Source: Rhizophagus irregularis
Taxonomy: Eukaryota > Glomeromycota > Glomeromycetes > Glomerales > Glomeraceae
Assembly (NCBI RefSeq): GCF_026210795.1
Contig: NC_089452.1
Coordinates: 2,232,001-2,296,000, forward strand
Length of the DNA: 64,000 bases
Direction: 5' to 3'
Below are positions 19,023-43,206 of this stretch, piece after piece; within the stretch, counting starts at the first letter, position 1, and each line of letters opens with the position of its first letter. Position numbers and translations under genes: made by a program. The notes beneath the pieces are model-generated. The model had not been told where the DNA came from. It did no database searches and worked only from the letters and a program-made list of their open reading frames with translations.

Positions 19023-19061
19023 TGAGAATAGAGCATATCAAGATAAGTTTAGAAGACAGTA

Positions 19062-19382: not shown

Positions 19383-19426
19383 TTTAAGATTTGAAATCTA
19401 AAACCATTCCTTTAATTTGTTGTAAT

Positions 19427-20518: not shown

Positions 20519-20543
20519 AAAAAAATAGAAGAATTAAAGGGTC

Positions 20544-21292: not shown

Positions 21293-21295
21293 TGA
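21281..21295 (-). promoter_or_regulatory. Putative -1 ribosomal frameshift site (A AAA AAG before stop)
   Basis: On the minus strand gag ends TCA AAA AAA AAG TAG. The last heptamer A-AAA-AAG fits the X-XXY-YYZ slippery pattern in the gag frame and lies directly before the stop. A slip of -1 enters the protease frame (AAA AAA GTA GGT). The downstream 40 nt has no obvious strong hairpin by eye. Transcript slippage on the 9-A run would give the same product and is an alternative. Confidence 0.65.
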
Positions 21296-22711: not shown

Positions 22712-23490
22712 ATCGTCTCTAGTGGATTGTTTAATATAGGTGGAGGAGGGTTCAATTGTCTAATTCGAAACCATTGTACCTGAATTCTAAGAGCAGCTAT
22801 CTGTTGGAAAAGTCTATTTCTAAGTCTCCCTAATGTCTGAATCCCAAAACGCACCCTATTATTAGCATGTGCTAGCTGTGCATTAACCTGTCCAAGTTGC
22901 GCATTAACCAATACAAGTTGTCCTCCAGTCCGAGTAGCCCTCAGCCGCCAATGATTTAAAAGGATATTACCACGATTCACAGCATTTTGAGCCTCATTAC
23001 GATCCCTTACTGCTTGAGTATAATCTGCTTGTAATACATTACGTTCATGTCGTGCCTGATTACGTTCACCTATAGCCCATCGACGAAGCTCTACCATAGT
23101 ATCATAATCTCTTTGCAGGTTATGGTTTTCTTCTATGAAATTATCATTGGCAGCACGTATAATAACTAATTGACGTTCTAAATTAGTAAACGTTTCATCA
23201 AATGCATTTATCTTACCTTGTGCAAAAACTAACAAATCTTTTGTAATACCAAGTTCTTCATGTTTTGCTTTACAGCGATACATTAATATATTAATAATAT
23301 GTTTGATTTGATTATTTGCCTCCTGTATCTCTGAATCAACAGTTAAACGACCCCTGGTAGTCAATAAATTTGCATGAGCCTTTAGTATTCTAACTAATTC
23401 ATCATCGTCTTTTTCATTGACCAAGTGTGCAGGAGGCGGTCCAGTAGGTTCTGAAGGAGTATAAACTGGAATTGGTGTTGATGTCGACAT
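22693..23490 (-). CDS. Coiled-coil protein upstream of gag
   Basis: 265 codons from an ATG at 23490. A disordered Pro/Thr start (STSTPIPVYTPSEPTGPPPA) is followed by an almost continuous helix (~30-245) with heptad-like Q/N/R/L pattern (ERNQARHERNVLQADYTQAV; RLRNRLFQQIAALRIQVQWF), then PPPPILNNP. Its stop overlaps the gag start by 19 nt, and gag is in the -1 frame relative to it, so the two may act as halves of one extended Gag. Start codons of this gene and the divergent ATPase are 31 bp apart. No enzymatic motif. A scaffold or assembly role is inferred from position and coiled coil. Confidence 0.7.
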   Translation of the reverse strand: MSTSTPIPVYTPSEPTGPPPAHLVNEKDDDELVRILKAHANLLTTRGRLTVDSEIQEANNQIKHIINILMYRCKAKHEELGITKDLLVFAQGKINAFDETFTNLERQLVIIRAANDNFIEENHNLQRDYDTMVELRRWAIGERNQARHERNVLQADYTQAVRDRNEAQNAVNRGNILLNHWRLRATRTGGQLVLVNAQLGQVNAQLAHANNRVRFGIQTLGRLRNRLFQQIAALRIQVQWFRIRQLNPPPPILNNPLETIWLPLR

Positions 23491-23521
23491 AGTATTTAAA
23501 CTAAGTTAGAATAAAATTCAA
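23491..23521. promoter_or_regulatory. 31-bp divergent intergenic region
   Basis: Only AGTATTTAAACTAAGTTAGA plus 11 bases separate the ATGs of the coiled-coil gene (minus) and the ATPase gene (plus). Any promoters must be bidirectional or overlap the coding regions, and leaders must be very short. TTTAAA and AATAAAA are the only TATA-like pieces. Such compactness is viral rather than fungal in style. Confidence 0.55.
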
Positions 23522-24745
23522 ATGGATCTTTATGTATACAATTTGGACGAGTACACGACCGACTCAAGACAAGGCAATGAGTTTGCTCCATCATGGCCCT
23601 TTCGATTAGCCGTAGCAGGTAGCTCAGACTCAGGTAAGACAACTATGATCATTAATTTGTTAATGGGTAACAAGAAAGCAAAGGAGGATGGTAATCGGTA
23701 TGTACTATGTGATGCAGTACTTTTAGTTGGCAGATATCTTGACGAGCCGAAGTGGGCAGTTGTACATGATTTTTTCGAAGAGGAGAAGATCCCATTCACT
23801 GCAGTAACTCATAGTGAAATTCCAGAGATTGACTCTTTCGACCCTACTCAAGCTACTGTGGTAATCTTCGAGGATCTGATGGATGCACCTAAAAAAATCC
23901 AGGATCTCATCACTGGTTACTTTACACATGGACGACACAAAAATATTTCATGTATTTATGTAGCCCAAAGATTCTTTGCCATTCCTAAGGCTATTCGAGA
24001 AAATGTTAACTACATCTCACTGCATGGAGGTCATGGGAGCCTTACAGATACCAAGAGAATCATCCGCCTATATACAGAAGAATCAGAGTCATTAGCACCA
24101 GTAATTGATGATCTTACTCTGCAACGTGAATTTGTAGTGTTTGATCTTAGACGGTCCAAAAGTGATCCACTGTCCATTCGAGTAAGATGGGATACTAGTC
24201 TCAGTTCGATCACAGAGCAATCTCAGTTCAATCCTAGTTCGATCTCAGTTCAATCTCAGTTTGATCCAAGTTTGAACCCAGTTCGATCTCAGTCTGAACC
24301 CAGTTCAATCACAGTTCGATCCAAGTTTAGTCCCTATGGTCAGAAAGCTGTATTTGAAGCAAAAAAAGGTGGACACTTGATTGAATTTGCTCGGGTATTT
24401 CCATCCCCTAAAGAACGTCAACATTTACTTGTACCTGGTGTCTTAGCCAAGAATGCAGATACCTGGATTAAATATGTCTTTCGGGAAGCTTATGGACTCT
24501 CTGGTAAGACCCTAGGAGCTGACTTTCAGGATTTCTTAGCAAAAGTACAGGGTAGGACTGCAAAGACTGAAACTCTGAAAACTGAGAATGTGAAGGAGTT
24601 ATTCTCCCGATATGAAGCCCTGAAGTCTAGTCGCCCTCTGGATAATAAACAAATAATAGAAGGTATTGAAGTCCTTCTACAGATCTTTTCTAAGAACCAC
24701 ATGGACCGTCGAGCATTACAAGTAGGGATTAATAGTATATTGTGA
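23522..24745 (+). CDS. A32-like (FtsK/HerA family) packaging ATPase
   Basis: 407 codons from an ATG at 23522. Walker A is GSSDSGKT (33-40) after a beta strand FRLAVA. Walker B is VVIFEDLMD (113-121). A sensor-like Q follows in CIYVAQRFF (~149), then ENVNYISL, the order of poxvirus A32 and Polinton DNA-packaging ATPases. Residues ~235-280 are a degenerate Ser/Gln/Pro repeat (QSQFNPSSISVQSQFDPS) encoded by tandem ~27-30-bp units, inserted between the ATPase core and a helical C-terminal domain. Expected role: ATP-driven genome packaging, which implies that some particle is made even though no jelly-roll capsid is present. The 3' end overlaps the convergent downstream gene by 17 nt. Confidence 0.9.
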   Translation: MDLYVYNLDEYTTDSRQGNEFAPSWPFRLAVAGSSDSGKTTMIINLLMGNKKAKEDGNRYVLCDAVLLVGRYLDEPKWAVVHDFFEEEKIPFTAVTHSEIPEIDSFDPTQATVVIFEDLMDAPKKIQDLITGYFTHGRHKNISCIYVAQRFFAIPKAIRENVNYISLHGGHGSLTDTKRIIRLYTEESESLAPVIDDLTLQREFVVFDLRRSKSDPLSIRVRWDTSLSSITEQSQFNPSSISVQSQFDPSLNPVRSQSEPSSITVRSKFSPYGQKAVFEAKKGGHLIEFARVFPSPKERQHLLVPGVLAKNADTWIKYVFREAYGLSGKTLGADFQDFLAKVQGRTAKTETLKTENVKELFSRYEALKSSRPLDNKQIIEGIEVLLQIFSKNHMDRRALQVGINSIL

Positions 24746-25289
24746 GAATATCAAGTAATTTGTCTGCAGAAGCTCTAAGAATCATAGCACTTTTTTTACG
24801 GCCTTCAAAGTCAATTCTTAACATCTTAGCCTTCAACCCTATTGCTCCTAAAGCACGAGAAGCAAAGTTCTTAGTCATTGGATTACTTATATGATTTACA
24901 TAGTTCTCATAGAATGTAGTGAAAGGCTCGTCAATACCATCTGGATATGTATCTCTTAGAAATTGATATAAAGCAATTTCTCCACTGTCACAACCTATGG
25001 CTATAAGCTGTTCGAGAAGCCACTTCCTAATATCTTCATATGGCTCTCCATCCATAATTTTCATATCCAGTCTTTGTGTAAACAATTGTGTAAAGTCCAC
25101 ATTACTTGCCCGACGGATAATCTGGACCAACTTATCCCTGGCAAGTCCCAAGGCTTGTAAAGGTTCATTCTCATCACTAATCTTCTTTATAATCTGTCTG
25201 TATAACACGCTGGATAATCCTCTATGTGCTGTTTTTGGAGTGACTACTCCACAGTTTTGGCACTGGTTTATTACGATTGATGTTGACAT
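24729..25289 (-). CDS. Unknown Polinton-like protein, 186 aa
   Basis: Starts at an ATG at 25289 and overlaps the convergent ATPase gene by 17 nt at its 3' end. The N-terminus has one CxxC (INQCQNCGVV). The rest is predicted helical with many Leu and charged residues (YEDIRKWLLEQLIAIGCDSG; TKNFASRALGAIGLKAKMLR). No signal peptide, membrane segment or enzyme motif. I do not recognise it. Its position next to the ATPase and the capsid-type block suggests a structural or packaging accessory, but this is only context. Confidence 0.65.
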   Translation of the reverse strand: MSTSIVINQCQNCGVVTPKTAHRGLSSVLYRQIIKKISDENEPLQALGLARDKLVQIIRRASNVDFTQLFTQRLDMKIMDGEPYEDIRKWLLEQLIAIGCDSGEIALYQFLRDTYPDGIDEPFTTFYENYVNHISNPMTKNFASRALGAIGLKAKMLRIDFEGRKKSAMILRASADKLLDILTIYY

Positions 25290-25334
25290 GGCTATCTTTC
25301 TTTATGTAAAAAAGAATTATTCAAAATTAAGTAA

Positions 25335-25916
25335 CTATTCGGAGCAGTCCTTGCACAACTTGTCCGTTAAGTCACTTGGGCTTACAGGCATGAGACATTC
25401 CCTACACAACTCAATATTAAGCTCTGCAAGTCTCGGGGTATGGTCCTCCAAAGTTCGTGGACGACTGGAAGGACCGGAGGAAGGTGTTCCGTTAGTCGTA
25501 TCTTGCTGTAAGATAAAATCATCATATTCATCTTGGTCAGCCTGAATAGCAGTCCTGATTTGTTGTATATCATTGAAAGTTAACCGCTGCCCATCAAGAT
25601 TTTCCTCATTATAGCGTGTTTCATTAATGATTTCCTCTATGAGCGCCTCTTCTTCATAATGGACAAGGTAGTAATCCTCAACTACCTCATAGTCACTCTC
25701 AATCAGTCTATAATATGTTCTAGTACCACGTCGAACATAACGTCCTGTATCTGTATTTAAATATACAGGTTGCTCTTCAGGTGGAGGTGCAGTTTGTCTA
25801 CGGACAAGCCTTCCATCAATATAATCATGGGATTCCATAACTATTCGATTAAAGGTATCTCCACCGATAATAATTGGACGTCCAGTTATAGGGTTAGCTA
25901 TATAAGGGTAAGACAT
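25335..25916 (-). CDS. Protein with viral NPxTGRxI motif and C-terminal zinc ribbon
   Basis: 193 codons from an ATG at 25916. The start SYPYIANPITGRPIIIGGDT carries the NP-TGR-I-GG signature seen in the 2-cysteine adaptor-type domain of large DNA viruses, though the cysteines of that domain are not obvious here. A second related piece is NTDTGRYVRRGTRTYYRLIE (~54-73). The middle is acidic and the C-terminus is a zinc ribbon (CRECLMPVSPSDLTDKLCKDC). The role is probably virion or protein-protein adaptor; confidence in the exact domain is modest. A promoter-like TCTTCAATTT motif lies 38 bp before the ATG. Confidence 0.6.
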   Translation of the reverse strand: MSYPYIANPITGRPIIIGGDTFNRIVMESHDYIDGRLVRRQTAPPPEEQPVYLNTDTGRYVRRGTRTYYRLIESDYEVVEDYYLVHYEEEALIEEIINETRYNEENLDGQRLTFNDIQQIRTAIQADQDEYDDFILQQDTTNGTPSSGPSSRPRTLEDHTPRLAELNIELCRECLMPVSPSDLTDKLCKDCSE

Positions 25917-25969
25917 GTCTTTTTTCTGTACGTGTCTACATACCTAATAGTTTTCTTCAATTTACAATA

Positions 25970-26175
25970 ACCAAGTGACACGGTCATCAGTCCTTATCAA
26001 AAAATACAAGAATACCTGATGACAAGGTTACATGGTCATCAATCCTTATTAAAAAATGCAAGGATACCTGATGATAAGGTTACATGGTCATCAATCCTTG
26101 TCGAAAAAATGCAAGGATACCTGATGATAAGGTTACATGGTCATCAGTCCTTGTCAAGAAATATGAGGATACCCG
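25970..26175. repeat. Four tandem ~53-bp repeats, each able to form a hairpin
   Basis: Units of the form GGTTACATGGTCATCAATCC / TTAT-TAAAAAATGCAAGGAT / ACCTGATGATAA repeat four times between two minus-strand genes. In each, TCATCA(A/G)TCCTT pairs with AAGGATACCTGATGA around an A-rich loop. The hairpin potential is kept while loop bases vary. Candidate roles are a replication origin, transcription terminator or packaging signal for the element. Confidence 0.75.
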
Positions 26176-26184
26176 ATAAATAAG

Positions 26185-26601
26185 CTACTCCTGTTGAGTC
26201 CATTCATTCCACTCCCAGTTCAGTCCCCAAGGGTCGCCTCCCCATCTTTGTTCACTTAATGCATGCTCTATGGTTTCCCTCTCTTGGGGGTCCACGACCA
26301 TCCCATTCCTAAGCATTTTCTCCATAATATAAAGCTGATCCTCGGTGAGGCGGTCTATCCATCTTTTATAGAAGTCGTTTACATCTTCAAATGATATCCA
26401 GTCAATATTCCCTTTTTCAAACGGCTTTCCAAGAGCTTGGACATGCCCAATTGTAGTAGCGTAATTTTTCCATCTCTTATATGCTTCTTGACGAACCTCC
26501 TGCCACCACACACTATCTACTTTACTCGCTGCAATAAGGTCAGTATCTGGGATCTTTGCAACAATGCGTTCGACTATTTCTACTGGTAATCGGTCCAACA
26601 T
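26185..26601 (-). CDS. F-box-like protein 1 of the Polinton-like element
   Basis: 138 codons from an ATG at 26601. Residues 2-44 match an F-box pattern: LDRLPVEIVERIVAKIPDTD, then LIAASKVDSVWWQEVRQEAY, i.e. LPxEIxxxI, a mid Leu/Ile, a V-S/W-W core and a basic helix. F-boxes bind Skp1 in SCF ubiquitin ligases. The rest is a helical, Trp-rich C-terminus (GGDPWGLNWEWNEWTQ) that might recruit a target. A promoter-like ATCTTCAATT is 27 bp before the ATG. Host F-box genes are abundant in this kind of fungus, so capture is plausible. Confidence 0.72.
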   Translation of the reverse strand: MLDRLPVEIVERIVAKIPDTDLIAASKVDSVWWQEVRQEAYKRWKNYATTIGHVQALGKPFEKGNIDWISFEDVNDFYKRWIDRLTEDQLYIMEKMLRNGMVVDPQERETIEHALSEQRWGGDPWGLNWEWNEWTQQE

Positions 26602-26694
26602 GATGTTATGTTACTTATACTATAGCCATCTTCAATTACTGTATGCCCATTACAAATGGATAAAAAATATAAACTAAATTCGTACAGGAGCCGC

Positions 26695-27165
26695 TTATGC
26701 AAGAAGTTCTGCTAAGGTTTTCTCAGCCTCGTTTTTAGTAATAGCTCGCTTTGGGGGACCGGTTGATAAGTCCTTAGTCGCATTATAATACAATTCAAAG
26801 AGGGCCTCAAGCTTATCTAGGAGAGCTTGTTTATTCTTGTATGATTCGCGAATTTTTGCTATCTTAGCAGTATATGCCGCATTATCTGGGAAGAGTTTTC
26901 TGGCCACGAACTTCACATATGATACAGGAGAATTTGCCGTCTGGATTCGCTTGATATACTTCACGTGGTCCTGGACAAGGTAGCTGGTTTTGCTAAACCC
27001 AGATACTAATGCGACTACTATAGTGTCTTTTAATGCACGGATAATCTTGAGGACAGTTTCATCAGAGACAATGGTGAACTGATTGTGTGATGCATCATAA
27101 ATAACTTTATCACTAATGCTGTCAGTGCTGTTAATAATGCTTGCTAATTCGGTATATGTTGACAT
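26695..27165 (-). CDS. Unknown helical protein, 156 aa
   Basis: ATG at 27165. The protein is mostly alpha-helical: VLKIIRALKDTIVVALVSGF, YTAKIAKIRESYKNKQALLD, KLEALFELYY. It ends in a basic/acidic tail (KRAITKNEAEKTLAELLA). No Cys clusters, signal peptide or catalytic motif. It lies between F-box 1 and the DNA polymerase, all on one strand, with its own promoter-like AATCTTCAAATT 38 bp before the start. I do not recognise the family. Confidence 0.62.
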   Translation of the reverse strand: MSTYTELASIINSTDSISDKVIYDASHNQFTIVSDETVLKIIRALKDTIVVALVSGFSKTSYLVQDHVKYIKRIQTANSPVSYVKFVARKLFPDNAAYTAKIAKIRESYKNKQALLDKLEALFELYYNATKDLSTGPPKRAITKNEAEKTLAELLA

Positions 27166-27278
27166 GATTCCTTATACTTTTTTGTACTTTGTAATAAATA
27201 GGAATCTTCAAATTGACTTTACATTCAAGCAAGAAAAAATATATATACCTACTGTAAACCCAACCACATTCTTGGCAA

Positions 27279-29159
27279 TCATGTCCAGATAACCTTGTTT
27301 GCATTTTTCACATGGCAGTATCCTGCAGTTTCAAACTTGAGAGCTTTCAATGCTTTGGATGCATTTTTTGGACAAGTGATAAGTGTAGGACTACTCGGCT
27401 GTTCCTCTAGAATAAATCCATCTGTATGGATGCGTCGTACTTTATCCTTATATGGTTCTAATAACTCTGAAGTCGTCTTCCGTCCATGTGCTAATAAGAA
27501 TGGAGCGATCCTAGGATACTCACCCTTGAAGGGACTACCTGGGTTTGTGAACTGGAATCGCCACTGGTCAGATCCTACTGGTACGATGGAGTCAAGTGTG
27601 TGGCCTTCTGGAAACTTGAATGGATCTGTTTGATCTGTGGTGAGTGTCTTGTAATTGCGTTTCCTCTGGCAGAGTGCTCCCCATAGTGTATTGAGAACTC
27701 TCTTTGCAACACGACCGGCTACGCCACCCTGGTTCTTTATATTGAAGAGAAAGTGGACATACTCACCAAATATTACAGTCCCAGGAATTCTTGCTTCTCT
27801 GTCATATATCAAGGCATTTGGCTTTCCATCCTGGATTAACTGTATATCGAGTCCAAGTTTCTTTGCTCGTTGTAAGTCAATAAATGTATAGACTCCCCTC
27901 TTATTCTGTCGGAAGAGAATGTCATTACCACTTACCTTGCCCTTGGGCGCTCCCTGGGAGCTAGCACGAAATAATCCATACAAGGCATAACCTCTATGGT
28001 CTACAAAGTCTTTGAGTATTTGAAACTTACCTTGTCGGATTGGAAAGTTTGCATTTGATTGCTGAATACTTGGATATAAACTTGTCACGTCGTATTGCCT
28101 TCCATAACCCTTCCATTCATTGTCTGCCCAGATAAGACCTCCCATCATTGCATCACTTATCCACTCTGCTTCGACTGGGTCAAGAGGATCATTGGCTGGA
28201 ACCCCTACACTAAACCGTTCAAAAAGCCAGAGTGCAGTTCTCTTGTACGACCAGTTGTGGTAAGATAAGTCGATTCCTAGACCGAACTTCTTTGTAGCCT
28301 GTAGGAAGGAATCCCGCTCTTCATGGATCCTCTGGTATGTTTCCTCAAGTGTTTCATATATTCCAGTTTTACAATTCTTCTCGATAGGGATGAAGGAGTA
28401 ACTATCAGAGTTCTTACCTTTCTGAAACTGTCCAACTGTAAGAGACTTAACTGTCTTACCATTGTATATTTTTACTACATTATTAACCCCATCTTCACGA
28501 TAAACAAAGGGAGACTTTTGTTTTCTATCTAATTTGCTAGGGTGGAGTCTTCCGGGATTCAGTGCAAGAGAGTAGTGGCCTTCAGACAAAATAAGTGTTG
28601 CACGTCTGTCAGATTTGCTCTTAGAAATTCGAGTGGAATCCCCTACAATATTAAGTGCAAGGCTTCCTGCAAGTTGTTCAACCTTATCCATATATGAGAC
28701 TGGAACTGGAGCATCACGATTGAGACCTAATGCCTTTTTGATATACTCAGGCTTTTCGATTGACTTTGGCATTTTAGAGAATGTGCCGTAGATATATTTC
28801 AGGCATTTATACAGGCAATCATTTAGCTCCCCGTTGCAACCCCCTGCAACCGGTGGGGCATCTCTCACATAAATTATGAATCGTTCAAAATAATCAGGGT
28901 CTGCGTCATCCGGTAGTTGTGCTTCGTCGTAGTGGTCCAAGAGTGAGAAGAGGCTGGCTGGTTGGTTTCCTGATGTCCATCCACCGGGTTTCCAGTTTTC
29001 ATAGGGGAGCAGAATCTGAAATTTATGTGTCGGATACCGGGATTGGAGTCGCTGTCCAAGTCTTGCTATTGCTCCTCTGGAAAATCTTGCGCCTGAATAC
29101 TGTAATTCTTTGATATCCGGTCTTGTAGGTAAAGCACGGACAATCTCTGAATAAACCAT
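27279..29159 (-). CDS. Family-B DNA polymerase with OTU-like N-terminal domain
   Basis: 626 codons from an ATG at 29159. Polymerase motif A is YDVTSLYPSIQ (D at 357), motif B is KRVLNTLWGAL (486-496) and motif C is RRIHTDGFIL (HTDG at 578-581, keeping the second Asp). These match protein-primed, viral/organellar PolB. It is much shorter than usual Polinton PolB (around 1,000 aa or more) and I find no exonuclease I-III motifs before motif A. Instead the N-terminal part has GGCNGELNDCLYKCL (Cys 115) and LSEGHYSLAL (His 195), the D-C-x-Y and H pattern of an OTU-type cysteine protease. It would replicate the element; the OTU-like part could remove ubiquitin. OTU assignment is by motif only. Confidence 0.88.
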   Translation of the reverse strand: MVYSEIVRALPTRPDIKELQYSGARFSRGAIARLGQRLQSRYPTHKFQILLPYENWKPGGWTSGNQPASLFSLLDHYDEAQLPDDADPDYFERFIIYVRDAPPVAGGCNGELNDCLYKCLKYIYGTFSKMPKSIEKPEYIKKALGLNRDAPVPVSYMDKVEQLAGSLALNIVGDSTRISKSKSDRRATLILSEGHYSLALNPGRLHPSKLDRKQKSPFVYREDGVNNVVKIYNGKTVKSLTVGQFQKGKNSDSYSFIPIEKNCKTGIYETLEETYQRIHEERDSFLQATKKFGLGIDLSYHNWSYKRTALWLFERFSVGVPANDPLDPVEAEWISDAMMGGLIWADNEWKGYGRQYDVTSLYPSIQQSNANFPIRQGKFQILKDFVDHRGYALYGLFRASSQGAPKGKVSGNDILFRQNKRGVYTFIDLQRAKKLGLDIQLIQDGKPNALIYDREARIPGTVIFGEYVHFLFNIKNQGGVAGRVAKRVLNTLWGALCQRKRNYKTLTTDQTDPFKFPEGHTLDSIVPVGSDQWRFQFTNPGSPFKGEYPRIAPFLLAHGRKTTSELLEPYKDKVRRIHTDGFILEEQPSSPTLITCPKNASKALKALKFETAGYCHVKNANKVIWT

Positions 29160-29242
29160 TTAATGTATTTATGAATTGTGTTCAGTTGTAATATAGGTTT
29201 TTTATACAAAAAATATAAGATAACTAAGAAGTGCTTATCTTA

Positions 29243-31780
29243 TTAAAAGGAGTCAATCTTGCTGCATACACGATCAAGATCCTCTTCATCCCAGTCGTCA
29301 ACAATTCCATTGGCGGCTTCCCATTCACGTTCCATATCAGTTTTTGGACATTCCTCGGGGATCTCTCGTGCTTTACCCTTATTCATCTTCATAGTTTCAT
29401 AACCGGAGGTGGTAGGGATAATCTCGGCATCATGATCCTCCTTATATGCTCTTATTAGATCTGCGAGTTCTTTACGGCTAGGTGTTTTAGGTAAGTACCC
29501 ATTATATTCTATCCAGTCCTTGAAGCGGTCTACTACCTCCCTAAGGTAGTACTGATACTCGTCCTCAATACGTGTTGTGGGACATTCCTCTACTTCAAAT
29601 GCGAGTATTTCCCAGTCATAGTCGTCTGACACGTCTTGGTACTTAGCCCATAAATCCTTACCTGTATTGTAGAGATCATTGAAGACCTGGTCCTTTGAAT
29701 TCTTGACCCATGGCTTACGATCCCATCGGTGCCTTTCATGCCAAGCCCAGTGTGCTCGAGTACCTTCCTTTGGTTCAGGGTCCCAGTCAACTTCTAGTTC
29801 TGTGTCAGGTTCTGGGATAGGTTGCTCTTCAGGAGCCGGTTCTGGGTCAGGCTTAGTGACGGATGCAGAAAATTCTGCGGGAGACTCGGGTTGTTGTTCA
29901 GGAGCCGGTTCTGGGTCAGGCTTAGTGACGGATGCAGAAAATTCTGCGGGAGACTCGGGTTGTTGTTCAGGAGCCGGTTCTGGGTCAGGCTTAGTGACGG
30001 ATGCAGAAAATTCTGCGGGAGATTCGGGTTGTTGTTCAGGAGCTGGGTTCACAGTTGTAAAATCTGAGTCAGATAGCAAGTCATCTAAAACGTCGTAGTC
30101 ATCATCAGCTTTAAATGCAGGTTCTTTAGCAGGCGGCTCATTTTCTTGATCAGGTTCCTCATCAGATAGATAACAGTCCGAGAAGCTATCTATAGGTTCA
30201 TCAGTATCTGATTCTATAGGAGCTGGAGATTCCTCAGAAATAGGATCCTCATTGATGACAGGTGCGGGTTTTACCTTCAAGCAATCGGGCTTAAGTGGTA
30301 CTGGTGGTGGAGTCTTTTTGGAAACTGGTTTCTCTTCCTCAGCGGGTTTCTCAACAACTGGCTCCACTTCCTCTACTGGTGTTTCCTGTATGTCTTGTAC
30401 ATCTTGGATTACTTTACTAAAATTCTCCACGATTTTTGCTTTATCTAGTATGTAATAGTTTATTCGGGCACCTGAACGTCTTGGGCGGGTTTTAGGAATG
30501 AATTGTTTAATCTCCATGCCAAACTTATTATCACTAAGTGTTTTGTTTTCGCCCTTCTCACTGCACCAATTCTGGTAAGTGCTATAAAAATTTGTACACG
30601 GGATTTCAAGTGTGTCGCAATTGTCGGGCCACATCATTTCAAGGTAATATTGTATAAAACGCTGGGGATTCGGGATACTTGCTTCAATTAACTCCCGTTT
30701 CATTTGAGTATCAGGAATAGATCGGGGATTGAAGCTAGTTAAGTCTCGGCTAAGTAGGTAGGACATGAAGGAACTGGCCGTATCCGGATTTTCTAATACT
30801 TTTACGAGAGAACCGAAGTATTCTCTATTGCCTTTATATTTGGCTGAGACGTTGAGAGCTACAAATCTTTCATCTCCCATTTCTATGCGGATTGGCATAG
30901 CATGATTACTGAGGATCATGTAGCCAGCAAAGTCATCAATAACCTTCACATCTATCCCCTTTTCCTCAATAGAGATGTAAGGCTCGGTGATTAAACTCTT
31001 GAGTCGGTTGTTTGCCCCGTGCCATTCCTTGCCTGACATATCGCATTCATTGAGGATGATAAGTTTTTTGGCACGAACAGCCGCATTGAACCTTCCCATT
31101 ACATCTTCAAGACGGGTAGTGGAGAGGAAATTTTCACGGCCGAGAATACGTTCTCCGATAAAATCGGTTAAGATATTCTTACCACATCTGGGGGGACTGC
31201 GCATAATAATTGCTGTACCGGGTTTTTTGTCTGGATTTTGAATTAGAAATGCGAGCCAGTTGAGGATGTATATGGTTAATTGCTTGTCCTCTGCACACCA
31301 TACCTCATGAACGTGTCGGATGATTGGATTAACTAGGTTTGGTTTAATGCGCTCAGCGGGTTGGGCCCTGAAACCTAGGAAGAGATTGAAGAATTCAGGA
31401 TTATACTTTGGCGCATTTGGGGGATAAGGCATGAAGTTTACATCTGTATAACAGATCTTTGCAATTGAGGCTTGGAGAAGAAGATCCTTTAATTTGGTGG
31501 ATGTAGTCGCGTCACTGTCTTCTCCGGTATTTGACCGAATAATTACCTTGTGCTTAGTAGAAATCCCCTTGAGATCTGCGGCAAACTCGAAGTATATGCT
31601 TCCATTGTAAGCCTTCTTTTTTCTAATCCACATGCCAGATTTTGTGGTGATGAAAGCCACAGAAGCCAAGATTGCTGAATTGACGCTTTCTTTCGTGTGT
31701 GTACCTACACATTTTTTAAGAAGGTCATCGTAGAAGAAACGGTTGTTGGGGTTAAAGATTGCTGGAACTTGAGCGGCCAT
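29243..31780 (-). CDS. D5-like SF3 helicase with acidic repeat C-terminus
   Basis: 845 codons from the ATG at 31780 (the frame extends five codons upstream only to a TTG). The core contains FFNLFLGFRAQP, Walker A MRSPPRCGKN (~193-202), Walker B KLIILNECDMSG (~239-250), motif C-type ILSNHAMP and the arginine GDERFVALN (~302-310), as in poxvirus D5/virophage superfamily 3 helicases. No primase catalytic motif is clear in the first 120 residues. Residues ~480-660 are disordered, Pro/Glu/Asp-rich, and include three near-identical 23-aa repeats (EPAPEQQPESPAEFSASVTK). The C-terminus is a Trp-rich acidic domain unlike the helicase. Role: replicative helicase of the element. Confidence 0.88.
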   Translation of the reverse strand: MAAQVPAIFNPNNRFFYDDLLKKCVGTHTKESVNSAILASVAFITTKSGMWIRKKKAYNGSIYFEFAADLKGISTKHKVIIRSNTGEDSDATTSTKLKDLLLQASIAKICYTDVNFMPYPPNAPKYNPEFFNLFLGFRAQPAERIKPNLVNPIIRHVHEVWCAEDKQLTIYILNWLAFLIQNPDKKPGTAIIMRSPPRCGKNILTDFIGERILGRENFLSTTRLEDVMGRFNAAVRAKKLIILNECDMSGKEWHGANNRLKSLITEPYISIEEKGIDVKVIDDFAGYMILSNHAMPIRIEMGDERFVALNVSAKYKGNREYFGSLVKVLENPDTASSFMSYLLSRDLTSFNPRSIPDTQMKRELIEASIPNPQRFIQYYLEMMWPDNCDTLEIPCTNFYSTYQNWCSEKGENKTLSDNKFGMEIKQFIPKTRPRRSGARINYYILDKAKIVENFSKVIQDVQDIQETPVEEVEPVVEKPAEEEKPVSKKTPPPVPLKPDCLKVKPAPVINEDPISEESPAPIESDTDEPIDSFSDCYLSDEEPDQENEPPAKEPAFKADDDYDVLDDLLSDSDFTTVNPAPEQQPESPAEFSASVTKPDPEPAPEQQPESPAEFSASVTKPDPEPAPEQQPESPAEFSASVTKPDPEPAPEEQPIPEPDTELEVDWDPEPKEGTRAHWAWHERHRWDRKPWVKNSKDQVFNDLYNTGKDLWAKYQDVSDDYDWEILAFEVEECPTTRIEDEYQYYLREVVDRFKDWIEYNGYLPKTPSRKELADLIRAYKEDHDAEIIPTTSGYETMKMNKGKAREIPEECPKTDMEREWEAANGIVDDWDEEDLDRVCSKIDSF
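29830..30050 (-). repeat. Three 69-bp tandem repeats inside the helicase gene
   Basis: The plus-strand unit begins CAGGAGCCGGTTCTGGGTCA and repeats three times with almost no divergence, so the reading frame is kept and 23 residues are added each time. The low divergence points to recent expansion. The product is a disordered linker between the helicase core and the C-terminal domain. Confidence 0.85.
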
Positions 31781-32018
31781 TTTTTGTTCTATCAAATCGA
31801 GTACTAATTTATAGTTACCTAATCTTCAATTGCCGAATATATTTTTTCCAAAGATCTGCACTCCTACCTGGTTACCCTCCTGTAGTCCTGTGGTCCTGCG
31901 GTTCTGCGGTCCTCCGGTTATATCTGGTTATCTTCTAGGGGTAAAAAAAAAAACTATAAACCACAAACCTTTACGACTGCTCTAAATCTTTCCTTCCCCC
32001 TTTTCAATCCACGTATAT

Positions 32019-32456
32019 CTAGTGAAATCCACACCGCTCAAGAGCCCACCTTACCATCATTTGCTCTTTTCTAGCGTCCGTTAACTCTTTACAAGCCTTT
32101 TGATACTCCTTCCAATTAAGCTCATGAAGTTCACGATTTCCAATACCCTCCTCCTCAAATGATTGACCAAGAGCATCCCCCGCTTTTTCCTTCTTTTCTA
32201 CTGCCCTGTCGTATGCCTCCTCGGCTTTCTCATATCGCTTCCACAACTCGGCTTTACAACAGTTATACCAGAGTCTGTTTATCTTGAGATGCTTTCCGAA
32301 TTCTTTGGCCGGAAGGTTTCTGACTATTTTTGCTACTATATCCGGGTCGTTGAGGGGCGATGCCCGCATTTGGATCCATTTACGGATTCCATAGATGTCT
32401 ACAAGATCAAGTCCGAGGTCTTCGGCAAGAGAAGTGGCTGCGTGTAAGTTCATCAT
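32019..32456 (-). CDS. F-box-like protein 2 of the Polinton-like element
   Basis: 145 codons from an ATG at 32456 (a second ATG follows immediately). Residues ~34-76 fit an F-box: SPLNDPDIVAKIVRNLPAKE, then FGKHLKINRLWYNCCKAELW, including the N-R-x-W-Y core typical of fungal F-box proteins. A charged coiled-coil helix follows (AEEAYDRAVEKKEKAGDALG...). It is only weakly similar by eye to F-box protein 1, so the two look like separate captures or old paralogues. The promoter region lies in the inner end of the right TIR. Confidence 0.7.
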   Translation of the reverse strand: MMNLHAATSLAEDLGLDLVDIYGIRKWIQMRASPLNDPDIVAKIVRNLPAKEFGKHLKINRLWYNCCKAELWKRYEKAEEAYDRAVEKKEKAGDALGQSFEEEGIGNRELHELNWKEYQKACKELTDARKEQMMVRWALERCGFH

Positions 32457-32473
32457 TGTATATTACTTATGGT

Positions 32474-33027
32474 ATACCCATTGTTCAATTACTTATTTTT
32501 TCTGACGGGGAAAGTGGTTATAGTTCGGCGGTCATAGTTCGGTGGTCATAGTTCGGTGGTCATAGTTCGGTGGTCATAGTTCGGCGGTCATAGTTCGGTG
32601 GCATAGTTCGGTGTCTCAGGTAAGTAGATAAAGGGTGGTCATAGCTTAAATCGGGTTTTGGAGCCTGAGGGGCTAACTAAGGTGGCCATAGTATTATCAT
32701 AAGTTTTTCGAACTGTGGCCAGTACTATGACCGGATATTCTGTCTGATTTCGGCTTTATTCGTGTTTTTATCCACTTTTTAGTAGTCTGGTCATAGTGGT
32801 CATAGTGGTCATAGTAGTTTTATATATAAGAAAAAATGGATAAAAAAAAAGGAGTTGGAAAGTAGTGTGACCAGCCATGGCCACTGTGGCCATGATAGTA
32901 GTATATATGGGGGATTCCTGATCCCCCGTAGGGGCGATATAGGTGGAGCGATAGCGAGATATAGGTACTGCGAGGCCCTGGCCGAGGTGGGTGGAGCGGT
33001 AGCGAGACACACATCCAGACCGACGAC
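32474..33027 (-). repeat. Right terminal inverted repeat (554 bp)
   Basis: Reverse complement of 18431-19022, ending CATCCAGACCGACGAC at 33027. It has fewer copies of the GTGGTCATAGTTCG tandem unit (32515-32620) than the left TIR and one base change in the CATGGCCAC palindrome (32876-32894). The inner edge supplies the promoter-like sequence of F-box gene 2. Confidence 0.92.
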
Positions 33028-33032
33028 CCGCT

Positions 33033-33857
33033 CAACGCTACTGGTTTTTATTTTTACCTTCGCAATATATCTACAAGCCGATTAAACATCTACATTACAC
33101 CCATGGTCTTGATTACCCCGACTATGGCTTTAAGATTCCAATTAATCAGGATATAACCTCCCAGAAGGATATTGTGGTTCACACAGTTGAACAATATAAC
33201 CCCGTTCCTGCTGGATTTTTCCCCTTGAAATATAAGGACATTATTCCTAAGGAGCCTCTATATACGAGCGCAGGTGACTTTATAATTCCTGGATCTCATC
33301 AATGGTTTACGCGAATGTACCAGTTGGATCTTGCACGAAAGGCTGCACAACCTCCAAAATTAACCCTTGAAGACCATCGACAATTACTTCTTCAAGAAGA
33401 GGCACGTATTGCGAACCAAATAACGGAAAAAAGAAAAGCGGAATCTCTTTTACATGGCACGACTGTCAAGCATCTCTATCGCCGTGATCGAGCCAAAAAA
33501 TGGCACACATTAAGAAATGATTATTATCACCAAAATATGTCAAAGTTCGAACAATATTTTGACAAGACAAAAGATAAGATTGTGTCACAAAATGACATTG
33601 CCTTTCAACTGCGACTTCACAAAGAGATGACTGATTTTAGTGATGCCTTTATACTTGGCAAGAAGATACGTATCGCTACCCGTACGACAAACGAGGAAAA
33701 GTACGTTCCATATAAATATGGAAATGAATTTATCGAGAATCCTTCGTATGAGGATTCCAGGGCCATTACCTCCGATGATACCAAGGAAATCGAAAGACGT
33801 CCGCATAAACATCTTACTACCACTTCGACTATTACGTCTGATGATCGATTGAAATGA
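33033..33857 (+). pseudogene. 3' half of the retroposon ORF
   Basis: From the base after the right target duplication the frame is open for 274 codons to a TGA at 33855-33857. It is in the same phase as the left half ending at 18430. It encodes QRYWFLFLPSQYIYKPIKHL, HYTHGLDYPDYGFKIP and later a Lys/Arg/Glu-rich helix (EEARIANQITEKRKAESLLH). No motif of a reverse transcriptase or endonuclease is recognised. The apparent start at 33174 is a GTG and not needed. The following ~500 bp to the (ATAA)n tail is a 3' non-coding region. Confidence 0.6.
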
Positions 33858-34366
33858 AGGCGACATACCCCTGCTATCGCTGATGACTCTTCAGAAGCAG
33901 GTCCTTCAGGTTCCCATACTAACATTTAATTTTATATTAGTTTAGAGTCAATTATTTTCATTATTACATATAGTTTCTTTTCTTTAGTTTATGTATAGCT
34001 ATCATGCTTTTAGTTTTTTCTTTTCTTTTTGAAAAACAATATAGAATAGTGTGAATCATTCCAACCATGACAGTATTTACGGTTGGTGGCCTTTTGGCTA
34101 AAAGAAAAATACAGATCTTTTTTTATATAGATTGTTATAGTTTTGTTTTACTATTCTGGATGTCCTTTATCCTTACGTTGGTCGTAGCGGTAGGATAAGC
34201 TATGGCCCTTTTATATAATTAGAAGTTAGGGTCCTTCCTTGAGCTTTTATTGGTTCCTGGCGGGATGATGACAAGAATTAGGATCGTCTCCAATGGGAGT
34301 TTATCCTGCTTATTTGGCTGTCTGGCTTCACATAAAATAAATAAATAAATAAATAAATCACCTAAT

Positions 34367-35095: not shown

Positions 35096-38000
35096 TTAAT
35101 TTTCATCTGTTTTAATATCTAAATAATTAAATATTAAATAAAATTAATTTTACATAAATAATTTGCAAGATTAACTCTTTTATATATCATAGTACTGTAC
35201 ATACCTAATGACCTCAAATCCTTAATTATATAATCACTCAAATCTTCACTTAAAAGCATTTCATTTGCTTTTACACTAGTAGCTTGTGAATCTTCACTTT
35301 CAAGAATTTCATTCAACTTTTTACTAGTATTCTCATCTGTTTTAATAATTAAATAAATTAATTAATTTCATATAAATAATTTGCAAGATTAATTTTTTAT
35401 ATATTATAATACATACCTAATGACCCCAAATCCTTAATTATATAATCATTCAAATCTTCACTTACTAGCATTTCATTTGCATTTACACTAGCTTGTGAAT
35501 CACTTTCAAGAATTTCATTCAATTTTTTACTAGTATTCTCATCTGTTTTAATAATTAAATGAATTAATTAATTTCATATAAATAATTTGCAAGATTAATT
35601 TTTATATATTATAGTATATACCTAATGACCTCAAATCATTAATCACACAATAATTCAAATCTGAATGACTTGCACGATATGCTTGTGAATTTTCACTTTC
35701 AAGAATTTCATTCAATTTTTTACTAGTAAAATCAAGTAAGCGACTTGTATAACATGCTTTAGGGTGAGATTTAGTAGCAAGATTGTTATGCCCAATTGGT
35801 GCATTTATAAATTCCATAATGTTGCTTTTTAATTCATCACTGAATTTATTACTACCAGGATAGTAAATCCAATTCTCAATAACAACTTTCACTTCTGATG
35901 CAGATGGCCTGTTTAATGGATCTTCATTCCAACATTTTTTCATTAAATCTACATAACATTGTGGAGTATTTTCAATAATTTCAGGTCGTTCACCTTTACA
36001 AATACCTAAACTAAGTTGAATATCATGTGCTCTATCATTAAATGGTGGTGCTCCGGATGTAAGTTCCCACATAATCATAGAAAAACTATATATATCACTA
36101 GCTGGAGTATAAGATTTGCCTCTTAAAACTTCAGGAGCCATAAATGGCATAACACCATAAATATCATACTTTTTCAAAAACGATTTTACAGGTTGACATA
36201 ATCCTAAATCACTAATATAAATTTTATCTTTACCATACTTATTACGATTTAAAATATTACCATCATGAAAATCACAATGAATAAGATTTTTTCCATGTAT
36301 ATTACTAAGTCCAGAAATAATTTCGTACAACATATATAATTTTTGATTCCAATTATTTTTGACTATTCTTGCTAAATTTTCTCTTAAATTACCTTTATTT
36401 GCATACTTTATTACTACCATATATTTCGAAGTATTTGGATCTTTTGTGAATCCATAAAATTCTATAATATCACTTGAAGCTAAAACACTTGCATGATATT
36501 CCCACTATAAAAATAATAATTATTATTAATATAAATAAATTTTAATTTAAATTAAAATAGAAAATAATATACTATCATACTTCTTCTAAAAATTCATTTA
36601 AATTTTCATTTAAATTCTTGGGACATTTAAGAATTACTACTTCACCTTCTTCATCATCCTCATCATCTTCATCCTCTTCATTTTCTTCAACCTCTTCATC
36701 TTCTTTATCTCCATTATTCTTTAACCAAATAGCTCTGTATATAGTACCAAATCCTCCTTCATTAAGATATTCAACATTTTTAAATTTGTTATAAGGAATC
36801 CATTTTAATACATTTTTAAGAATAAAATCATCTATAATTGCATTTTCACTTTTTCCAAATCTAAAAATTTAACAGTTAAAATTATATTATAACTTGTATT
36901 ATAATTTACACTAAAATAATTATTACTTACTCTAAAATTCAAATAAGAATTTAATGTAATATAATTCTTAGTTTTTGGATAAAAATATATAATAATCTAT
37001 AATTTACAACTTACCAACTAAAGTAACAGATATTTTAAATGAAAGAATTAAATTAAAAAATAAATATTATATAAAATATATAACAATAGAGATACTTACA
37101 AGCTAGATCATAAATAATTTTTTAAATAAAGAAATTAGATAGTTTAAATTATATGTAAATATTATAACAATAAGTAATAATAGAATTAAATAAATAACTT
37201 ACCATCTATGAAATAAATTAAGAAATTAGATAGTTTAAATTATATGTAAATATTATAACAATAAGAAATAATAGAATTAAATAAATAACTTACGCCCTAA
37301 ATAAAGAAATTAGATAGTTTAAATTATATGTAAATATTATAACAATAAGTAATAATAGAATTAAATAAATAACTTACGCCCTAAATAAAGAAATTAGATA
37401 GTTTAAATTATATGTAAATATTATAACAATAAGTAATAATAGAATTAAATAAATAACTTACGCCCTAAATAAAGAAATTAGATAGTTTAAATTATATGTA
37501 AATATTATAACAATAAGTAATAATAGAATTAAATAAATAACTTACGCCCTAAATAAAGAAATTAGATAGTTTAAATTATATGTAAATATTATAACAATAA
37601 GTAATAATAGAATTAAATAAATAACTTACTCGCTATATTATTTAATAATTTTTTAAATAAAGAAATTAGATAGTTTAAATTATATGTAAATATTATAACA
37701 ATAAGTAATAATAGAATTAAATAAATAACTTACCAACTATTAAATAAATTAAGAAATTAGATAGTTTAAATTATATGTAAATATTATAACCATAAGTAAT
37801 AATAGAATTAAATAAATAACTTACCATCTATGAAATAATTTTTTAAATAAAGAAATTAGATAGTTTAAATTATATGTAAATATTATAACAATAAGTAATA
37901 ATAGAATTAAATAAATAACTTACGCCCTAAATAAAGAAATTAGATAGTTTAAATTATATGTAAATATTATAACAATAAGTAATAATAGAATTAAATAAAT

Positions 38001-39937
38001 AACTTACGCCCTAAATAAAGAAATTAGATAGTTTAAATTATATGTAAATATTATAACAATAAGTAATAATAGAATTAAATAAATAACTTACCAACTATTG
38101 AATAAATAAAGAAATTAGATAGTTTAAATTATATGTAAATATTATAACAATAAGTAATAATAGAATTAAATAAATAACTTATAACTTACGATCTATTAAA
38201 TAAATAAAGAAATTAGATAGTTTAAATTATATGTAAATATTATAACAATAAGTAATAATAGAATTAAATAAATAACTTACGCCCTAAATAAAGAAATTAG
38301 ATAGTTTAAATTATATGTAAATATTATAACAATAAGTAATAATAGAATTAAATAAATAACTTACCAACTATTGAATAAATAAAGAAATTAGATAGTTTAA
38401 ATTATATGTAAATATTATAACAATAAGTAATAATAGAATTAAATAAATAACTTATAACTTACGATCTATTAAATAAATAAAGAAATTAGATAGTTTAAAT
38501 TATATGTAAATATTATAACAATAAGTAATAATAGAATTAAATAAATAACTTACGCCCTAAATAAAGAAATTAGATAGTTTAAATTATATGTAAATATTAT
38601 AACAATAAGTAATAATAGAATTAAATAAATAACTTACGCCCTAAATAAAGAAATTAGATAGTTTAAATTATATGTAAATATTACAACAATAAGTAATAAT
38701 AGAATTAAATAAATAACTTACGCCCTAAATAAAGAAATTAGATAGTTTAAATTATATGTAAATATTATAACAATAAGTAATAATAGAATTAAATAAATAA
38801 CTTACTCCCTAAATAAAGAAATTAGATAGTTTAAATTATATGTAAATATTATAACAATAAGTAATAATAGAATTAAATAAATAACTTACCAACTATTAAA
38901 TAAATTAAGAAATTAGATAGTTTAAATTATATGTAAATATTATAACAATAAGTAATAATAGAATTAAATAAATAACTTACCAACTATTGAATAAATAAAG
39001 AAATTAGATAGTTTAAATTATATGTAAATATTATAACAATAAGTAATAATAGAATTAAATAAATAACTTATAACTTACGATCTATTAAATAAATAAAGAA
39101 ATTAGATAGTTTAAATTATATGTAAATATTATAACAATAAGTAATAATAGAATTAAATAAATAACCTACAATCTATTAAATAAATAAAGAAATTAGATAG
39201 TTTAAATTATATGTAAATATTATAACAATAAGTAATAATAGAATTAAATAAATAACTTACCATCTATGAAATAATTTTTTAAATAAAGAAATTAGATAGT
39301 TTAAATTATATGTAAATATTATAACAATAAGTAATAATAGAATTAAATAAATAACTTACAAACTATTAAATAAATAAAGAAATTAGATGGTTAAATTATA
39401 TGTAAATATTATAACAATAAGTAATAATAGAATTAAATAAATAACTTACAAACTATTAAATAAATAAAGAAATTAGATGGTTAAATTATATGTAAATATT
39501 ATAACAATAAGAAATAATAGAATTAAATAAATAACTTATAACTTACGATCTATTAAAGAAATTAGATAGTTTAAATTATATGTAAATATTATAACAATAA
39601 GTAATAATAGAATTAAATAAATAACTTACCATCTATGAAATAATTTTTCAAACAAATAAAGAAATTAGTTGGATTGAACTGTACAAATAATATAAATATA
39701 GATATCATATAACTTACACCCTGTAGTATTATTAATTATTAATTAGTTAAATATAAAGATAATATAAAAGTAATTATTGTAAATTATATATATATTACTT
39801 ACAATCTAGTTATTTAAATTAAGAATATAATTAGTTGAATTATATAAAATATTAAATATGAATTGTTTATAAATAAAAACTTAATATTTCAGCTTGTTTG
39901 ATATACCTTCAATATTTTGGTCCATTTGTTGGTCCAT
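35096..39937 (-). CDS. Protein kinase gene with a 5' array of single-codon micro-exons (39-exon model)
   Basis: Splice model: exon 1 39907-39937 (ATG, ends in phase 1); 32 exons of 3 nt from 39803-39805 down to 37015-37017; a 1-nt exon at 36931; then 36581-36860, 35622-36504, 35417-35542, 35205-35336 and 35096-35106 (stop TAA). The sum is 1,560 nt, open throughout, 519 aa. The kinase domain has EGGFGTIY (Gly loop), VVILKCPKN (Lys), HCDFHDGNIL (catalytic loop), ISDLGLCQP (DLG for DFG), MAPEVLRGK and DIYSFSMIMWELTSG: a serine/threonine or TKL-type kinase of the class expanded in Rhizophagus. An acidic loop (DKEDEEVEENEEDEDDEDDE) sits before the Lys. The Gly-loop exon has no Met upstream, so a 5' exon is required. 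The kinase exons are near certain; the micro-exon part is a hypothesis. Confidence 0.72.
35205..35760 (-). repeat. Triplicated C-terminal exon of the kinase gene
   Basis: The segment SKKLNEILESE...NDLRSLG occurs at the end of the main kinase exon, again in the exon 35417-35542, and again in 35205-35336. Each is followed by a GTATAT or GTATGT donor and preceded by a TTAAAACAG acceptor. The duplicated exons are 126 and 132 nt, multiples of three, both in phase 1, so all three can be spliced in series or used alternatively. The last short exon adds DEN and the stop. This duplication pattern is independent of the 5' micro-exon array. Confidence 0.8.
36931..39806 (-). repeat. Tandem intron-like repeat array, 84-104-bp units
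   Basis: About 30 units share the core GTAAGTTATTTATTTAATTC ... CTAATTTCTTTATTTAG on the minus strand. Each unit looks like a complete intron: GTAAGT donor, a CTAAT branch-like site 14-20 nt before the end, and an AG acceptor. Between each AG and the next GTAAGT lie exactly three bases: ATT, GGT, ATG, ATC, TTT, TTG, GGA, GGC, CGA or CTT. The outermost units (39718-39805 and 37015-37102) have diverged intron bodies but keep the 3-nt spacing. One donor is GTAGGT (39164-39169). The most common period is 84 bp. It is not CRISPR-like. Confidence 0.9.
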
Positions 39938-42597: not shown

Positions 42598-43206
42598 ATG
42601 AAAATTAATATTCAAGTAGTTTCAACCCGCCTGAACAACTTTCAATTAATAAATGAAGTTGATTTCATTTGTCCAAAGTGGAGATATTACACTCTAAATT
42701 ATAAAAACATAAAAGAGAGTTAATATAATCAAGAAAAATGCAATTTTCTTTAAGCACTACACCTACATTCATGAAAATTAATATTCAAGTGGTTTCAACT
42801 CACCTGAACAATTTTCAATTAATAAATGAAGTTGATTTCATTTGTCCAAAGTGAAGATATTACGCTCTAAATTAAAAAAAACAGAAAAGAGAGTTAATAT
42901 CATCAAGAAAAATGCAATTTTCTTTAAGCACTACACCTACATTCATGAAAATTAATATTCAAGTGCTTTTAACCTGCCTGAACAACTTTCAATTGATAAA
43001 TAAAGTTGATTTCATTTGTCCAAAGTGGAGATATTACGCTCTAAATTAAAAAAATAGAAAGAGAGTTAATATCATCAAGAAAAATGCAATCTTCTCCAAG
43101 CACTACACCTACATTCATGAAAATTAATATTCAAGTAGAATCAACCCGCCTAAACAACTTTCAATTAATAAATAAAGTTGATTTCATTTGTCCAAAGTGG
43201 AGATTA
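42598..43206. repeat. ~173-bp satellite, 3.5 copies
   Basis: ATGAAAATTAATATTCAAGT begins units at 42598, 42771, 42945 and 43117 (periods 173, 174, 172). The last copy is cut off at about 43206 (TTGTCCAAAGTGGAGAT). Each unit contains CACTACACCTACATTC and GAAGTTGATTTCATTTGTCC. The copies are ~90% alike by eye. No frame is open through the units. Period is near nucleosome length. Confidence 0.88.

Follow-up and report, generated by a model that had tools for sequence, protein, structure and literature searches.

Tandem arrays of putative single-codon exons in a kinase family of the mycorrhizal fungus Rhizophagus irregularis

Among described genes, the closest in structure to the one considered here are the micro-exon genes (MEGs) of schistosomes, in which many very short exons follow one another in series, most of them multiples of three in length. 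The gene under study lies on the minus strand of a 64,000-nucleotide stretch (hereafter the window, part of contig 24; positions 2,232,001 to 2,296,000 of NC_089452.1) of the genome of Rhizophagus irregularis, a root-dwelling soil fungus and the model mycorrhizal fungus. Upstream of its kinase-coding exons it carries an array of 32 candidate exons of exactly three nucleotides, followed by a candidate exon of a single nucleotide. A MEG is given as having 10-20 exons of 6-81 bp (3-81 in the abstract), 15 bp being the commonest length, and its introns measure from 100 bp up to nearly 5,000 bp; MEGs are described as hard for automatic annotation (PMC10526429), and their proteins are reported to evolve fast (PMC4350168). 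Consecutive very short exons are what we found as well, namely 32 of 3 nt in the window gene and 410 of 429 in 18 loci. Unlike MEGs, however, the arrays consist of nearly nothing but 3-nt exons, up to dozens per gene, and the introns between them, about 80-100 nt long, are tandem copies resembling one another. The MEGs encode secreted proteins, whereas the array products are kinases of the family PF07714, so membership among the schistosome MEGs by descent is unlikely.

Single exons of this size are also known to be spliced in, with 1 nt in Arabidopsis and in Fusarium CYP621A and 3 bp in Drosophila homothorax (PMC4674806, PMC7392893, PMC12940212). Those exons are isolated ones, whereas each array strings tens of them together and adds a 1-nt exon, for which the family has 110 sites. 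Recursive splicing resembles the arrays in that, once an intron has been joined out onto the preceding exon, the following 5' splice site lies at the junction (PMC6224609). The acceptor stands beside a regenerated donor in the arrays too, as AG-NNN-GTAAGT, with three bases between them rather than none; a recursive exon is either taken out again or has to compete with a donor further downstream, whereas an array step would leave a codon behind. Exon-junction complexes are reported to repress donors near junctions in human cells (PMC6224609). Efficient serial donor use in the arrays would therefore be unexpected.

High-internal-conservation repeats of fungal NLR proteins carry a few hypervariable codons per repeat. 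Like the arrays, they are tandem, near-identical and fast-diversifying, and they belong to genes of non-self recognition (PMC4986451, PMC12222747, PMC2873952). Near-identical repeats with hypervariable codons were found here, with 21% difference in exons against 0.8-4% in control triplets, but the conserved part of an NLR repeat is protein, whereas the conserved part of an array unit is intron and only one codon per repeat would be protein. WD40, ANK or TPR repeats were not among the families of three scanned proteins, which were of kinase type only. Introner-like elements are similar in being related spliceosomal introns in many copies (PMC4457414); in contrast to them, the array introns that we examined stand in tandem within one gene family, and the five stretches with lone unit cores that we looked at turned out to be broken array remnants. 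We found no report of a one-codon exon array, or of micro-exons in Rhizophagus, in our searches of open-licence PubMed Central. The chemistry of the splicing is thus known, and the architecture of the array, so far as this search reaches, is not.

We read the window gene as a member of the PF07714 kinase family whose N-terminal segment is written as a constitutive array of single-codon exons, and we put the probability of this reading at roughly 85%. The existence of the array is confirmed. An original prediction made from the letters of the window had claimed 32 consecutive AG-NNN-GTAAGT units, one of them with GTAGGT, and then a 1-nt exon at position 36931, and we located all of these directly on the minus strand (Table 1). 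Each unit is an intron with a GTAAGT donor, a CTAAC-like branch site and an AG, plus nearly always three bases; the units, whose introns are alike, are tandem duplicates, and the triplets are the part of the unit that changes fastest. The predicted intron range of 81-101 nt held at its upper end only, since the measured introns span 80-101 nt; the intron ahead of the array has 101 nt, and the two after it have 83 and 70 nt according to the exon coordinates. The motif AGNNNGTRAGT matched 31 times in the window, always within the array, against 1.80 matches expected and a maximum of 5 in 100 shuffles; the 32nd unit falls outside this count through its GTAGGT donor. Read in phase 1 with the flanking bases included, the array encodes D WYDLFYDYLVGRRRHLGHLGRHVARRRRHAF E.

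The reading frame of the window gene fits this layout. As predicted, a 31-nt first exon with an ATG (39937-39907) ends in phase 1, and phase 1 plus 3n plus 1 leads into the frame of the kinase, whose exon A opens with A/TTT GGA AAA (Phe-Gly-Lys). The absence of a Met before the glycine loop, also predicted, was seen for 36581..36860. The joined exons are open from the ATG to the first TAA over 1,311 nt with two kinase exons and over 1,572 nt once the duplicated C-terminal ones are added; the 1,560 nt originally claimed are 12 nt less by arithmetic and are obtained when the last acceptor is 35106. Pfam PF07714 was matched by the open reading frame part 35602-36420 alone (E 2.5e-30). It had further been argued that skipping the array breaks the frame. 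This holds when the array and the 1-nt exon are dropped together, but dropping the triplets alone keeps the frame open, so the argument rests solely on the 1-nt exon.

Table 1. Features of the window gene, in window coordinates (slashes mark exon borders)
Feature	Position	Strand	Remarks
Exon 1, ATG...GAAG, 31 nt	39907..39937	-	phase 1 at end; donor GTATAT
Array, 32 three-base exons and 31 introns of 80-101 nt	37015..39805	-	AG-NNN-GTAAGT, one GTAGGT
Triplet first bases, units 1-16	39805 39720 39632 39549 39452 39362 39263 39172 39081 38983 38892 38808 38724 38640 38556 38465	-	5' to 3': ATT GGT ATG ATC TTT TTT ATG ATT ATC TTG TTG GGA GGC GGC GGC ATC
Triplet first bases, units 17-32	38367 38283 38192 38094 38010 37926 37827 37736 37632 37548 37464 37380 37296 37205 37102 37017	-	5' to 3': TTG GGC ATC TTG GGC GGC ATG TTG CGA GGC GGC GGC GGC ATG CTT TTG
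5' units ATT GGT	39718..39805	-	phase 1 G/AT T/GG = Asp-Trp; intron bodies diverged; recur in paralogous arrays
3' units CTT TTG	37015..37102	-	intron bodies diverged; recur in paralogous arrays
One-base exon A	36931..36931	-	between TTTTAG and GTAAGT; completes codon G/A/A (Glu) and sets kinase frame
Kinase exon A (FGKSEN...GGFGTIYRA...NEFLEE)	36581..36860	-	glycine loop, no Met ahead of loop
Kinase exon B	35602..36504	-	runs to TAA unless spliced at 35622; PK_Tyr_Ser-Thr
Possible C-terminal exons	35542-35417, 35336-35205, 35118-35096 (or from 35106), within 35096..35542	-	duplicated exon and intron unit of about 206 nt

Chains of AG-NNN-GTAAGT at other kinases, which the original prediction had proposed to look for, were found as a genome-wide family. 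We scanned the genome (146.7 Mb, 32 contigs) and read 20 stretches in a first batch and then 6, 2 and 1 further array regions, labelled L0xx. The core unit matched 2,440 times at up to two mismatches (1,207 and 1,233 matches) and its reversed control not once. The exact donor-side core GTAAGTTATTTATTTAATTCTATTATT is present in 1,011 copies, 993 of which have an AG exactly 3 bases upstream. The last intron together with the 1-nt exon, TATTTAAATTTTAG-A-GTAAGT, was found at 110 sites with at most one mismatch, against 1 in the reversed control, and in 4 of the 100 listed 1-nt exon sites the single base is C, G or T at unchanged length. When these 100 listed sites were compared with 91 scored kinase exons, 64 of the exons were preceded on their own strand, at a distance of 328-506 nt, by such a site, and none had one within 2 kb upstream or downstream on the opposite strand. 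The intact arrays that we examined all lie upstream of this one kinase family. Judged from paired start and end sites, array length ranges from about 0.5 to 8 kb, for example at C15:765400-765910 and C16:1443803-1451858 (interior not read), which we estimate to correspond to some 5 to 85 units. A search for spliced retrocopies of the 3' junction (CTT, TTG, A and the kinase exon) gave 6 matches, all with 3 mismatches, against 3 in the reversed control, and thus no evidence of retrocopying.

The outermost units, which the prediction had described as diverged in body and regular in spacing, are non-random, with ATT GGT (or GGC) present in the chains of 20 of 26 loci and CTT TTG likewise in 20 of 26, where misses are expected since some of these loci are only partly covered. 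Sites resembling AGATTGTAAGTAATATATATAATTT of the 5' units were found across the genome. Arrays commonly open with CTC, TCA/TTA/TCG, TTG/ATG, ATT and GGT, in phase 1 Ala-Leu-x-Asp-Trp, and commonly close with CTT, TTG and then the 1-nt exon. In eight paralogs read by eye, a short ATG exon of 13-25 nt with the donor GTAATA (GTAAAG in L021) is followed by a second, mostly acid-rich exon that ends in AG/GTATAT, and both exons end in phase 1; the acid-rich second exon of L021, for example, is VSSNIEEFEESGTEEFEGS. The window gene has one shorter first exon where these paralogs have two. In several paralogs the second exon itself consists of short acid repeats (EEFEGSGTEEFEGS), in runs that differ in length. 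Because this exon adjoins the array, two neighbouring segments vary in different ways. The genome-wide family, the extra paralog exon between exon 1 and the array, and the hypervariability of the triplets relative to the introns all go beyond the original prediction.

Database search together with Pfam showed close kinship to annotated R. irregularis kinases. The 120 best of 1,165 database kinases of the family come from R. irregularis, R. diaphanus and R. clarus, and one of them, P0001 (R. irregularis DAOM 181602=DAOM 197198), has 100% identity over 84% of the gene built from L009. A 32-chromosome assembly of DAOM197198, with Nanopore long and Illumina RNA reads, has been described (PMC10234402). 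Not every copy is intact. Five stretches (L010, L011, L018, L027, L028) hold lone or few units with broken spacing, that is, decayed array remnants, and in four of the five no kinase motif was found within the stretch. In L049, the regular units are interrupted (minus strand, about 2361-2604) by a few hundred bases that do not resemble them and may be an insertion, and in L022 (C4:820500-829500) the kinase frame breaks near the C-terminal end (minus strand, about 6984) and resumes in another frame.

We then asked how strictly the exon length and the splice signals are kept. Paths were scored through 18 loci with donor and acceptor matrices and a flat exon-length prior of 0-40 nt, where the path spans only the best-scoring part of some arrays. 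The best paths contained 429 exons, 410 of 3 nt and 8 of them the terminal 1-nt exon, which is a C in L013/L014; the 11 exons of odd length (4, 6, 8, 9, 20, 21, 32 nt) include some clear path errors. A unit profile scan of 25 stretches gave 666 hits, 609 of them full length. About one third of the 666 hits were aligned one donor copy off (GTAAGTTATAAGT variant), so AG and GT conservation was recounted from the raw sequence and the column table was dropped. A donor GT[AG]NGN was present in 576 of the 609 full-length units, in 569 of these 576 at a spacing of 3, and was absent from 33, several of which read AG-TTG-GCAAGT. Such GC-donor units with the three-base spacing kept were seen repeatedly in L019/L020 (C3:4846000-4864000). 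GTAAGT is perfect in 531 of the 576 donors, as expected if the tiny exon itself contributes little, and the other donors of the array genes differ from it (GTAATA, GTATAT, GTATGA). The AG+GTAAGT block is intact in 87% of the 609 units, compared with 63-73% for seven other 8-base blocks. Since intron lengths vary widely at constant exon length, this constancy is not just an absence of insertions and deletions.

To ask whether the triplets are translated, we counted stops in 773 triplets in 67 chains from 26 loci and shuffled the order within chains 3,000 times; the overlapping loci L001-L008, L041, L043, L045 and L047 were omitted, as were L029-L034 and L051, and chains of fewer than 3 units were dropped. 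In phase 1 we observed 2 stops where 18.2 were expected, the lowest of the 3,000 shuffles having 7, while phase 2 contained 97 stops against 88.3 expected. Where a triplet begins with AA, AG or GA, the one before it has T as its last base in 2 of 77 cases, compared with 167 of 629 for all other pairs (Fisher P 1.3e-7). The effect remained when each distinct pair was counted once per locus (2/53 vs 141/455, P 3.3e-6) or once overall (2/35 vs 57/214, P 0.005). A T before GG, which gives Trp, was found in 58 of 185 cases and a T before GA, which gives a stop, in 0 of 17. When the five remnant stretches are set aside, T before AA, AG or GA at lag 1 falls to 1 of 76, and one of the two phase-1 stops (TAT AAC in L010) lies inside such a remnant.

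Stop avoidance was not significant at lag 2 (11/75 vs 126/564, P 0.14), nor at lags 3 and 4 or in the reversed direction (P 0.13-0.56). Because it is significant at lag 1 only, the triplets seem to be joined to their immediate neighbours without skipping, and the lag comparison suggests near-complete inclusion rather than combinatorial skipping. On this basis the number of units would set the length of the protein, as originally proposed, provided that all units are included. We see no process at the DNA level that would tie the final base of a triplet to the two opening bases of its successor, one-way, across a 90-nt intron; translation of serially joined exons explains the avoidance. The flanking exons fit phase 1 in the eight paralogs as judged by eye, and the kinase frame fits via the 1-nt exon.

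A further line of evidence comes from the variability of the triplets. We compared 790 within-locus unit pairs with at most 4 differences in the 38-nt flank on each side, and took eight intron triplets of the same geometry as controls, because conditioning on similar flanks lowers flank divergence. The exon bases N1, N2 and N3 differ in 27, 12 and 24% of pairs, 21% overall, whereas the control triplet means are 0.8-4.0%, with 9.6% reached at a single control position. Taken per locus, the median difference is 0.218 for exons and 0-0.034 for controls. N2, the least variable exon base, is the wobble base in phase 1. In the window array, exon differences of 7, 0 and 13% stand against 0.7-0.8% in introns (75 pairs). 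Splice signals are kept while codons diversify. Our reading is that the encoded residues are under diversifying selection; we think it less likely that mutation acts locally in a way that spares stops. Stop avoidance, retention of splice signals and exon variability together say that the triplets are probably translated. The interpretation of the triplets as single-codon exons in phase 1 with a 1-nt exon is supported by the paralogous arrays through their spacing, their neighbour-limited stop avoidance and the 110 one-base sites.

Several observations count against this interpretation. All of its support comes from comparison of DNA sequences, dozens of three-base exons in series had no precedent in the literature searched, and the 3-base spacing by itself could have been inherited through duplication. 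Because its training units had intact signals, the scan model may favour units of that kind, and the unit pairs of the variability analysis are not independent, L019, L050 and L037 supplying 489 of the 779 pairs of a companion count; the arrays of L039 and L050 show no exon difference at all. L035 has an in-frame TAG (ATT/AGA) within an otherwise normal array, which is either evidence against translation or the mark of a dead copy. Public gene models are a further difficulty. Many of the 120 listed kinase proteins start downstream of the array, the models that we saw rarely include it, and no 7-residue phase-1 (or phase-2) piece of the 67 chains occurs among these 120. A composite phase-1 query made from two arrays returned 183 candidates, none at E 10 or better. 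The sole listed protein that shares 7-residue pieces with the fetched arrays, P0023, does so in phase 0 and at its own locus (C11, L049), and its array ends through a 5-nt exon, AGTAA/GTAATA.

P0023 raises the possibility that the triplets code in phase 0, for a hydrophobic segment rich in Leu, Ile, Gly and Met that is joined to the kinase via this 5-nt exon. The protein contains MGEEGILELVIELLLGIGLLLELGILGIELSK, by eye the ordered phase-0 translation of the L049 triplets bar a few units, and the N-termini of P0033 and P0064 look similar to it. That the triplets are mostly NTN and GGN codons was at first attractive, as were 5 phase-0 stops against 23.6 expected were the three positions independent. 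However, TGG, TGC and TGT (1, 0 and 2 against 19.5, 13.8 and 15.6 expected) are as scarce as TGA, so the scarcity of stops reflects triplet classes and not stop avoidance, and order shuffling is uninformative for phase 0. In phase 0, TGA is met in L022, L024 and, twice, L036, and TAA once in L013/L014. Since the second exon ends in phase 1, phase 0 cannot be joined to it directly, and the 5-nt exon requires an A, whereas the base is C, T or G at 4 of the 100 sites listed. Order-dependent stop avoidance was found in phase 1. We regard coding in phase 0 as very improbable. Only a little less doubtful is a minisatellite in one long intron, or upstream of the gene, whose motif spacing was inherited by duplication and which is removed whole. 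It would account for the tandem duplication of the units, for the open frame when all triplets are skipped and the 1-nt exon is kept, and for the many public models that lack the array. A minisatellite does not account for phase-1 stops avoided between neighbours only, for exon bases that differ between units far more often than the control triplets do, for splice signals better kept than other intron blocks, or for an exon length that stays 3 while intron length varies.

Units might also be skipped singly in a combinatorial manner to yield many isoforms, as reported for schistosome MEGs, whose isoforms are reported to arise from differential splicing (DeMarco 2010). All window units have 3 nt and one phase, so that any subset would stay in frame, though stops may arise; frequent skipping, however, predicts stop avoidance at lag 2, where the effect is not significant as given above, and we hold such splicing to be unlikely. 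That the array kinases are mostly pseudogenes and the pattern a fossil is barely credible to us. The five broken remnants, the stop in the L035 array and the break near the end of the L022 kinase frame would agree with decay, but the window gene is open to its stop, four of five paralogs checked (L016, L021, L023, L024) have long open kinase exons, and the splice signals outlast other intron blocks.

At its other end the window gene shows a separate kind of duplication. Within 35096-35662, the C-terminal kinase exon and its intron are tandemly duplicated (period 206 nt, 2.5 copies), so that the gene grows there as well. Upstream of the gene, 42598-43204 is a tandem repeat with a period of 174 nt, 3.5 copies and 92% matches. 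The stretch 18000-34000 has about 41% G+C within a 25% background; its open reading frames encode an integrase with chromodomain, an A32-like ATPase, a type-B DNA polymerase and a D5-like helicase. Close to each end stand short tandem repeats, those at one end being the reverse complement of those at the other. We presume that it is a Polinton/Maverick-like element, which it resembles.

Our working model for the single-codon array is that each intron, with its own strong signals, would be recognised singly and that the pre-mRNA would be spliced serially. Removal of intron n would add three bases to the upstream exon and leave the next GTAAGT three bases from the junction, and the spliceosome would thereby ratchet through the array, one codon per step, until the last exon, of 1 nt, moves the frame from phase 1 into phase 2, fitting the kinase exon. 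Unequal crossing-over within the similar introns would add or remove units, with single residues gained or lost and the frame kept. More speculatively, the segment may serve the kinase as a variable arm for recognition or regulation on which diversifying selection acts; by analogy with the repeats of fungal NLRs, a rapidly varying N-terminal arm might fit a role in recognition or docking. We consider it an even bet that these kinases owe a hypervariable recognition segment to single-codon exons spliced in series, in which the unit of mutation would be an intron plus a codon, recombination would add, remove or swap residues without frameshift, and diversifying selection would target a single codon in each repeat while the introns serve as recombination substrate.

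If true, the arrays, with dozens of such exons in each of many genes, would show that a spliceosome is able to add codons one after another at high fidelity, something not anticipated from exon-definition models or from the reported repression of donors near junctions. The arrays would also represent a new route to variable proteins, in frame-safe steps of one residue driven by intron recombination. Since the gene models seen mostly miss the array exons, part of the kinome of this mycorrhizal fungus is probably misannotated.

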